The notes beneath the pieces were generated by a model that saw only the letters and a list, made by a program, of their open reading frames with translations, had not been told where the DNA came from and searched no databases. From assembly GCA_903882935.1 (NCBI GenBank), contig CAIRZB010000072.1:1-64000 (forward strand): DNA of 64,000 nt, written 5' to 3'. Below, piece by piece: positions 27,163-28,788 of this stretch (the first letter of the stretch is position 1; every line of letters starts with the position of its first letter). The DNA is from an uncultured Parafilimonas sp. (lineage in GTDB: Bacteria; Bacteroidota; Bacteroidia; Chitinophagales; Chitinophagaceae). A program made the translations under genes and the position numbers.

Positions 27163-28788
27163 ATGATAGGTGCACGGAATGTAACGCTTGCTTATGGCAA
27201 ACGTATTTTGTTTGATGAAGTAAACATAAACTTTGTAAAAGGTAATTGCTACGGCGTTATAGGTGCCAACGGGGCAGGCAAGAGTACCTTTTTAAAAATA
27301 TTGAGCGGTGAAATTGAACCCAATAAGGGATCAGTTGAAATTACGCCAGGCGAAAGGCTGGCCGTATTAAAACAGAACCAGTTTGAGTTTGACGACGACA
27401 CTGTGCTGAACACAGTTATGAAGGGCCACAAGAAGTTATGGGAGATTATGCATGAGCGTGAAGCCATTTACGCAAAAGCCGATTTTACTGAGGAAGACGG
27501 CATGCGCGCCGGTGAGTTAGAAGGTGAGTTTGGCGAAATGGGCGGTTATGAGGCCGAAAGCAACGCCGGCAGCCTGTTAAGCGATTTGGGTGTAACCGAA
27601 AATTATCACCAAAGCCTGCTGAAAGACATACCCGGCAACCTAAAAGTGCGTGTATTGTTGACACAGTCGCTGTTTGGCAACCCCGATATATTGTTACTGG
27701 ATGAGCCTACCAACGGCTTGGATATTGAGACGATAGGCTGGCTGGAAAACTTTTTGGCCGACTATGAAAACATTGTGCTGGTAGTAAGCCACGACCGTCA
27801 CTTTTTAGATGCAGTGTGTACCCATGTAGCCGATGTAGACAAACAAAAAATAAAGCTATTTACCGGCAACTACACGTTTTGGTACGAATCATCCCAATTG
27901 ATGAGCCGCCAAATAAACGACAAGAATAAAAAAGTAGAGGAAAAACGGCAGGCGTTGTTAGACTTTATTGCCCGTTTCTCCGCCAATGCCTCCAAAAGTA
28001 AGCAGGCTACATCCCGTAAAAAGGCCTTGGAAAAACTTACCATCGAGGACATCCAGCCCAGTAACAGAAAATACCCCGGCATCATTTTCCAGCCCCTGCG
28101 CGAAGTAGGCAACCAAATATTAAACGTAGAAAACCTTAGTAAAAAGTTAGACGGGCGCGTGCTGTTTGATAAAGTTAACTTTAGCCTTAACAAAGGGCAA
28201 AAAGTTGCTTTTCTTAGCAAGGACCCTCTTGCAGTTACAAGCTTTTTTGAGATAGTAAACGGTAACCAAACTGCTGATGGCGGTATGTTTGAGTGGGGCA
28301 CAACCATTACCAAGGCATACTTGCCTATGGAAAACAATGAATTTTTTACGGAAGGGTTAACACTGTTAGATTGGCTGCGCCAGTTTGTGCCACCCAATAT
28401 TACCGACGCGGACGAACCCTTTTTACGTGGCTTTTTAGGCAAAATGCTGTTTAGCGGTGATGACATTACTAAAAAAACAAACGTGCTGAGCGGGGGTGAA
28501 AAAGTGCGTTGCATGATAAGCCGCATGATGCTGCAAAACCCCAATGTAGTGGTGCTTGACCAGCCTACTAACCACCTTGACCTTGAAAGCATACAAAGCT
28601 TTAACGAGGGTTGTAATATTTTTCCGGGGGTTGTACTAATCACGTCGCATGACCATACATTTATGCAAACGGTGGCTAACCGGGTAATTGAATTGACCCC
28701 CAAGGGCATTATTGACCGGCTGATGACGTTTGACGAATATATGGAGGACGCAAGGGTTAAGCTGTTGCGGGAAGAAATGTACAATTAA
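27163..28788 (+). CDS. ABC-F ATPase, YbiT-like, with degenerate second ATP site
   Basis: ABC-F proteins act on the ribosome rather than in transport: two ABC domains in one chain joined by a linker, no membrane part. The 541-residue protein aligns with YbiT. Domain 1 has an intact Walker A (GANGAGKS, 34-41) and Walker B ([11 protein letters not shown]) but [13 protein letters not shown] in place of the signature. Domain 2 has the signature LSGGE (442-446), but its Walker A region reads [11 protein letters not shown] (350-360) and the catalytic glutamate is Q467 (LDQPTNHLD). One composite site is therefore canonical and the other is dead. The linker ([10 protein letters not shown]) is normal. 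A terminator follows. Confidence 0.9.

Follow-up and report, generated by a model that had tools for sequence, protein, structure and literature searches.

A YkpA-type ABC-F protein with one canonical and one dismantled composite ATP site

Introduction

How does an ABC-F protein operate when only one of its two composite ATP sites still carries the residues of an ATPase? By published account (PMC11282234), members of this family work with two ATP and have consensus motifs in each of their nucleotide-binding domains; the standard laboratory tool for their study, the EQ2 form, carries mutations of both catalytic glutamates together (PMC6723617). The question is raised by a gene in a 64,000-nucleotide stretch of DNA from an uncultured Parafilimonas sp. 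(contig CAIRZB010000072.1), hereafter termed the window, for which a reading of the bare sequence had proposed one canonical and one dead ATP site.

Throughout this article, site I denotes the composite site formed by the Walker A and B motifs and the A-, Q- and H-loops of the first domain (NBD1) together with the signature and D-loop of the second (NBD2), and site II denotes its counterpart. Motif positions were placed through alignment to E. coli YbiT, 13 canonical residues were counted per composite site, and the roles of the motifs follow general knowledge of ABC proteins as summarised in PMC7756269. As discussed further below, the asymmetry between the two sites is real, well supported and, by sequence, common to every member of the branch that was examined. 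At a probability of roughly 0.75, we read the window protein as an asymmetric ABC-F translation factor of the YkpA type in which site I alone would bind and hydrolyse ATP and site II is probably ATP-free.

The gene, its domains and its neighbours

The complete open reading frame encodes a protein of 541 amino acids in which the PF12848 linker joins two ABC domains (Table 1). Two stretches of the protein exceed the Pfam cut-off for ABC_tran (PF00005), and ABC_tran_Xtn (PF12848) scores 68.5 bits against a cut-off of 25.9; the tandem ABC domains and ABC_tran_Xtn/PtIM linker by which the ABC-F fold is recognised are both present. A further hallmark, consensus Walker A and B motifs in each domain (PMC11282234), is found in NBD1 but fails in NBD2, where Walker A is absent and the glutamate is replaced. 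Judged from these features, the window protein is an ABC-F in fold and linker with one site missing.

Among NCBIfam models, the top match is the YbiT model NF011646 (PRK15064), at 611.6 bits and under the cut-off of 762; the same model gives 676 bits for the Bacillus velezensis protein, 682 for that of Paenibacillus, 615 for that of B. ovatus and 1055.8 for E. coli YbiT. The models for the resistance ABC-Fs Vga, Msr, Lsa, Sal and OptrA score the window protein at 163-245 bits, against NCBIfam cut-offs of 680-1450. We infer the name "YkpA-type", the B. velezensis copy (L198) standing in for YkpA of B. subtilis 168. The best solved match, both by sequence and by fold, is the ribosome-bound EQ2-YbiT (9njf), and family membership together with this nearest structure suggests that the window protein would bind the ribosomal E site. 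The linker segment, residues 226-305, has the lowest mean evolutionary rate among six segments of the protein (0.63).

Table 1. Features of the ABC-F gene and its neighbourhood in the window
Feature	Position	Strand	Basis
ABC-F ATPase, YkpA-type branch	27163..28788	+	ORF, Pfam, NCBIfam
NBD1 Walker A, GANGAGKST, residues 34-42; site I, canonical	27262..27288	+	translation
NBD1 signature position, IPGNL replacing LSGGQ/E; site II element lost	27628..27642	+	alignment
NBD1 Walker B and D-loop, residues 177-187, with D180 and catalytic E181	27691..27723	+	translation, alignment
NBD1 H-loop His210; site I, canonical	27790..27792	+	206/206 branch members
Inter-domain linker / P-site tRNA interaction motif (PF12848)	27832..28077	+	Pfam
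NBD2 A-loop position, Leu329 for aromatic; site II element lost	28147..28149	+	alignment
NBD2 Walker A position, SKDPLAVTS (352-360), Lys position V358; site II element lost	28216..28242	+	alignment
NBD2 Q-loop position, Met389 for Gln; site II element lost	28327..28329	+	alignment
NBD2 signature LSGGE, residues 442-446; site I, canonical	28486..28500	+	alignment
NBD2 catalytic position, Gln467 (codon CAG) for Glu, within LDQPTNHLD	28561..28563	+	translation, alignment
NBD2 H-loop His496, kept	28648..28650	+	alignment
Class IV aminotransferase, deoxyribodipyrimidine photolyase	28918..31198	+	Pfam, NCBIfam
Likely export transporter, consecutive genes for two ABC-2 membrane proteins and an ABC ATPase	31237..34286	-	Pfam

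On the 3' side of the ABC-F gene lie genes for a class IV aminotransferase, whose top NCBIfam match is an aminodeoxychorismate lyase under the cut-off, and a photolyase. When seven neighbours (an FKBP-type isomerase, the aminodeoxychorismate-lyase-like aminotransferase, the photolyase, two ABC-2 permeases, a beta-propeller protein and a desaturase) were compared with 80 related loci, of which 40 had both 6 kb flanks, tblastn returned no match at E 1e-5; as a positive control, the same seven queries find themselves in the window. Nothing in these 80 loci therefore suggests a conserved operon.

Site I is canonical

All 13 canonical residues of site I are in place in the window protein, with Gln71 at the NBD1 Q-loop, and the prediction that this site is intact thus stands. 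The same holds with few exceptions for the 206 members of the YkpA-type branch assembled here. A strict GxxxxGK[ST] Walker A in NBD1 is found in 205, the remaining one (L160) being a gene that ends at a contig edge; the NBD1 catalytic glutamate (E181) is found in all 206; and the NBD2 signature reads LSGGE in 203, TSGGE in 2 and is missing in 1.

Site II is dismantled

Site II retains 4 of its 13 canonical residues in the window protein, and 3-6 in the window protein and its family. Five elements are gone, namely Walker A, the catalytic glutamate, the NBD1 signature, the A-loop aromatic residue and the Q-loop glutamine; the original prediction had counted three, the additional losses being those at Leu329 and Met389. 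Residues 350-360 are encoded at 28210-28242, and SKDPLAVTS stands where GxxGxGKST is expected. As had been foreseen, alignment to E. coli YbiT (VLGTNGVGKSTL) places no Walker A elsewhere in NBD2, and the glutamine at the catalytic position was likewise located and identified correctly.

The loss of the NBD1 signature had been likened to the state of YbiT, and here the loss itself is borne out, while the likeness is only a loose one. E. coli YbiT shares with the window protein its domain order, the PtIM linker and a weak NBD1 signature (VAPGW), yet it is only 41% identical, lies outside the branch in the tree, and has a canonical Walker A, A-loop, Q-loop and glutamate in NBD2. Some members of the YkpA-type branch, moreover, keep LSGGE in NBD1 (Peptoclostridium).

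Across the branch, the remaining losses differ in extent. The A-loop of NBD2 has Tyr or Phe in 12/12 YbiT-like sequences and Tyr, Phe or His in 6 of the 206 branch members (one further row having a gap), and its loss in the branch is therefore not complete. The Q-loop glutamine persists in 33 of the 206 (7 of 76 in a thinned set), compared with 12/12 YbiT-like sequences and 7/7 other ABC-Fs. The term "YbiT-like" serves here as a label for four gammaproteobacterial sequences and eight from the phylum Bacteroidota, not as a tested family.

Several NBD2 positions are still well kept in the thinned set of 76 branch rows, among them Asp466 (74/76), His496 (67/76) and Thr359 (67/76), and the broken loop has preferences of its own, with Ala357 in 67/76. 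Taken together, these features make the loop look rebuilt rather than merely released, and the former Walker A loop likely has a structural role. We observe in addition that residues 352-359 have acquired a new consensus in the branch, S/G-x-D/N-x-x-A-x-T. Position 496 is His in 183 of the 206 members, Arg, Tyr, Lys, Gln or Phe in 22 and missing in 1; the change of this H-loop residue to Arg, Lys or Tyr in 9 of the 76 rows is an extra site II loss in some lineages. An AlphaFold model of moderate quality (pLDDT 80, pTM 0.54; best TM-score 0.49), in which domain placement is too weak for a judgement on the pocket and which carries no information on nucleotides, retains a strand-loop-helix at the former P-loop of NBD2 (E347-351, H355-365).

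The good conservation of Asp466, His496 and Thr359 counts against an ATP-free site II, in that it implies selection on some chemistry or structure there. It is also what might be expected if site II bound ATP without hydrolysing it, as a static clamp resembling the degenerate site of ABCC-type exporters and CFTR, and the fact that some branch members retain the Walker A lysine, the A-loop tyrosine or the Q-loop glutamine points the same way. As PMC7756269 recounts, the degenerate exporter site holds unhydrolysed ATP, and transport by MRP1 suffers when the glutamate is restored there but is little affected by Gln, Asn or Leu. The degeneracy described there, however, mainly concerns the Walker B glutamate, the H-loop and the signature, whereas the window protein has also lost the phosphate loop, the adenine stack and the Q-loop, and we consider a clamp of this type unlikely. 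The reading in which ATP is bound at site I alone has its own difficulty among better-preserved relatives: the lysine position of the NBD2 Walker A is still Lys in 17 of the 206 branch members, and one of them (L150) keeps 9 of 13 site II residues.

Distribution of the trait

The branch was assembled from several sources. Among 395 genomes surveyed in the phylum, 109 encode a window-type protein, the window's own included, and 7 a YbiT-like protein of 40-42% identity, all of which were read. To these were added the 80 loci that best match the window, mostly Chitinophagaceae by record title, which are near-copies and not independent. A plasmid collection held 51 matching records, of which 23 were read (19 branch members and four gammaproteobacterial YbiT proteins); a phage collection held 49, and the three that were read comprise two branch members and an ordinary ABC-F; and a scan of viral_contigs gave 2 loci. 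Redundant records, two matching the window (L002, L084) and five matching loci already in the set (L214-L217, L219), were dropped. The 206 rows include L160, in which the NBD1 side is missing, and L250, in which the NBD2 end is missing, both of which cover the Walker A position of NBD2.

In NBD2, a strict Walker A is found in 0 of the 206 branch members, including 0/19 of those read from the plasmid collection, and in 0 of six further survey rows (G025, G170, G174, G206, G316, G379), all six of which have Glu at position 467; the count is thus 0/212. The strict motif is present in 12/12 YbiT-like sequences, the seven YbiT-like survey rows having both an intact Walker A and the glutamate, and in 7/7 other ABC-Fs, while 24 other ABC-Fs taken from a survey and two more encoded in the genome to which the window belongs have the lysine and glutamate in place.

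The loss of Walker A had been attributed to Bacteroidota relatives of YbiT. It is indeed common to the branch, but it reaches well beyond that phylum, and a trait restricted to Bacteroidota is ruled out by the copies in Bacillota, Fusobacteriota and Mollicutes. Beyond Bacteroidota, the proteins found to resemble that of the window most closely are the YkpA-type ones of these three groups (46-60% identity), not E. coli YbiT (41%). Those from the plasmid collection at 52-60% identity come from Paenibacillus, Bacillus velezensis, Cytobacillus, Peptoclostridium, Acetoanaerobium, Lactobacillus, Latilactobacillus, Pusillibacter, Subdoligranulum, Fusobacterium, Ilyobacter and Haliovirga, and the Mycoplasmopsis copies are 46-48% identical to the window protein.

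Some side observations concern the records themselves. In three plasmid-labelled records, from Bacteroides, Parabacteroides and Phocaeicola (L196, L197 and, from base 101, L249), the YkpA-type copy has Thr as its catalytic residue. Among the survey genomes of one family (f17), the gene has a patchy distribution. The Limosilactobacillus fermentum copy (L250) seems broken, consisting of two tblastn pieces with a frame lacking the NBD2 end. Phage-filed records, among them L246 and L247, contain ABC-F genes of a housekeeping type and are probably host DNA.

Loss of site II is graded: the whole branch is past the consensus, and nucleotide binding there may, to judge from the residues retained, survive in part of it. 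The best-preserved site II is that of L150, in which 9 of 13 canonical residues remain (GPNDLAKT, an A-loop Tyr and the Glu), followed by 8 of 13 in L155, L169, L244, Paenibacillus and Cytobacillus. We note separately that L150, L155 and L169, all from the survey, and some Bacillota have Lys in the loop, and that L169 nonetheless has Gly at the catalytic position.

Residue 467 and the question of a natural trap

Among the 206 branch members, the catalytic position of site II is Gln in 96, Glu in 86, Asp in 8, Thr in 8, Gly in 5, Asn in 2 and missing in 1; the glutamine is therefore less common than the loss of Walker A, as had been anticipated. It is Gln in 80/80 of the best-match loci. An identity of 70% or more is reached by 92 relatives, 80 of them these near-copies; 89 have Gln and three Glu (L093, L094, L096). 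The 90 relatives of 50-70% identity have Glu in 75 and Asp, Thr and Gly in 5 each. Outside the survey, Gln occurs in four Clostridia and two Mycoplasmopsis, Asn in Fusobacterium and Ilyobacter, Asp in Lactobacillus and Latilactobacillus, Thr in Bacteroides, Parabacteroides and Phocaeicola, and Glu in Bacillus, Cytobacillus, Paenibacillus, Persicobacter and Haliovirga; the segment is missing in Limosilactobacillus. A sequencing slip is not the explanation, given Gln in 89/92 close relatives and a strict Walker A in none of the 206.

The natural Glu-to-Gln change had been compared with the EQ traps made in the laboratory. If the comparison were apt, site II would hold ATP and the protein would stay long on the ribosome, as do EQ mutants. 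Replacement of both catalytic glutamates by glutamine locks EttA, with ATP bound, on the ribosome, and the EQ2 forms of the four E. coli ABC-Fs inhibit translation (PMC6723617); the prevalence of Gln among close relatives, although these are mostly near-copies, would also suit such a reading. The laboratory traps, however, have an intact Walker A and bind ATP without hydrolysing it. The pocket to which Q467 belongs has lost its Walker A, A-loop and Q-loop and probably has no ATP to trap, so that the comparison is probably misleading. Sister lineages with the same broken pocket have Glu, Asp, Thr, Gly or Asn at this position, which has changed at least seven times in the tree, and such variability is more easily reconciled with an idle position than with a tuned trap; the invariance of the site I glutamate also speaks against a trap. 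Since ATP has probably ceased to bind in this pocket, we regard a natural EQ trap as very improbable. By contrast with an ATP-holding site II, an ATP-free one would leave Q467 looking like a late, recurrent change at an idle position. The glutamine is the least important part of the finding, whose substance lies in the loss of Walker A, A-loop and Q-loop.

Phylogeny, evolutionary rates and constraint

Two trees were built, in both of which long outgroup branches call for caution. For these, the branch was thinned to 76 rows (quick tree) or 64 (careful tree) by taking every sixth or fewer of the 80 best-match loci and by reducing the Bacteroidota rows of 54-63% identity to less than 80% mutual identity (27 of 90); the partial L160 was omitted, and five Gly467 rows dropped out through thinning. 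In the careful tree, from which the site II motif columns were excluded, the branch forms one clade with support of 99/99 and is recovered in 100% of 200 bootstrap trees; the quick tree also joins it as one clade (support 99). The window protein falls inside this clade of Bacillota, Bacteroidota, Fusobacteriota and Mollicutes sequences, apart from YbiT, while the YbiT-like rows are not one clade in the careful tree, where they need 2 changes and group together in 8% of the bootstrap replicates. Position 467 requires at least seven changes, and at least two between Gln and not Gln, in the careful tree; the corresponding figures in the quick tree are eight and three.

Evolutionary rates reveal how differently the two sites are constrained; the p values that accompany them assume independence between columns and serve only as a guide. 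In the 76 branch rows, 21 columns of site I have a median relative rate of 0.056, as opposed to 0.70 for the 21 columns that correspond to them in site II (Mann-Whitney p 5e-6), and site II does not differ in rate from the remaining 499 (p 0.44). For the 12 YbiT-like rows, site II evolves more slowly than the remaining columns (p 5e-5) and slightly faster than site I (p 0.045), the gap between the two sites being clearest at the A-loop and the NBD1 signature.

The gene as a whole is under strong purifying selection: compared with 65 relatives of at least 85% identity, the median pN is 0.094, with synonymous sites saturated (pS about 0.9), a saturation that precludes a dN/dS ratio. These data bear on a further possibility, namely that the whole protein has come off ATP and persists as a passive ribosome binder, or is decaying. 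The loss of one of two sites might be taken as a step in that direction, but with site I motifs nearly frozen across phyla and strong selection on the gene we give this possibility almost no credence. A decaying gene was specifically rejected on the pN value, the saturated synonymous sites and the frozen site I.

A simplest order of events can be proposed for site II. The NBD1 signature would have weakened early or separately; the NBD2 Walker A, A-loop and Q-loop would have broken at the base of the branch, with the lysine and other residues lingering in some lineages; and the catalytic glutamate would have changed later, and repeatedly.

A possible working cycle

What remains in the window protein is best explained by a cycle driven by a single ATP, which we infer from the observed anatomy, phylogeny and rates. 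One ATP at site I, held between Walker A and B and the Q- and H-loops of NBD1 and the LSGGE and D-loop of NBD2, would close both domains. The closed form would occupy the ribosomal E site, and the conserved linker would reach the P-site tRNA and the peptidyl transferase centre. Hydrolysis of the single ATP by E181 would then release the protein from the ribosome. The site II half of the interface, devoid of contacts to adenine, phosphate and gamma-phosphate, would close through protein packing, its catalytic position presumably having become Gln later here and Gln, Asp, Thr, Gly or Asn in other lineages.

Whether this applies to the branch at large is more doubtful. It is conceivable that the entire branch, four phyla in the present set, runs on one ATP per cycle, with site II rebuilt as a nucleotide-free contact that closes the domains in place of a second ATP and with residence on the ribosome set by one hydrolysis; the A-loop aromatic or His retained in 6 of 206 members and the better-preserved site II of some members weigh on this extension, which we put forward as tentative, leaning against it.

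Comparison with known systems

The closest characterised counterpart is the YkpA group of B. subtilis. The copies in B. velezensis, Cytobacillus, Paenibacillus and an Enterococcus record are 56-60% identical to the window protein and have a broken NBD2 Walker A; unlike the window protein, those of B. velezensis, Cytobacillus and Paenibacillus keep Glu at position 467, and the latter two also keep the Walker A lysine. Deletion of ykpA in B. subtilis leads to mild stalling on poly-Lys and poly-Glu, and YkpA, named YkpA/YbiT in that study, partially overlaps in function with YfmR and YfmM (PMC11381351); the string "YkpA-EQ2" is absent from the main text of that paper. YbiT has been treated as a broad subfamily of which B. 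subtilis YkpA is a member (PMC6723617), in a paper whose main text does not contain the terms "Walker A" and "Walker B".

Asymmetry between two sites is known from other ribosome-acting ATPases. EttA of Mycobacterium tuberculosis is likewise a two-NBD E-site factor, and its sites engage nucleotide in a staggered, asymmetric manner, but the ATP motifs are conserved at both (PMC8782954), whereas site II of the window protein has been stripped. The recycling ATPase ABCE1/Rli1 acts on the ribosome with twin NBDs and two unequal sites (PMC6124641), yet has a consensus site in each domain (PMC12937102), so that its asymmetry is not that of a lost site. The nearest parallel in kind is found among membrane transporters. 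Degenerate type I ABC exporters and ABCG5/G8 combine one canonical with one degenerate composite site in which the odd residues are clustered; in ABCG5/G8, signature and Walker A changes occur together and the Walker A lysine has become Arg, whereas in the window protein the whole loop is replaced (PMC7756269). The passages cited from PMC7756269 describe no ABC-F case, and in the mainly open-access literature covered here (titles, opening parts of abstracts and passages) no lost site is described for YkpA or any other ABC-F. Degenerate sites are well known in exporters (PMC7756269); the kind of change is thus known, and its place, as far as these sources extend, is new.

Implications

A branch of ABC-F proteins from which evolution has removed one site amounts to a natural test of the role of each. 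It poses the questions of whether a single hydrolysis is enough for release from the ribosome, and of whether the second site of an ABC-F drives the cycle, times it or merely clamps the domains. In the YkpA-type branch, a double mutant should add nothing beyond a single site I mutant, which affects how an EQ2 form of YkpA is to be read.
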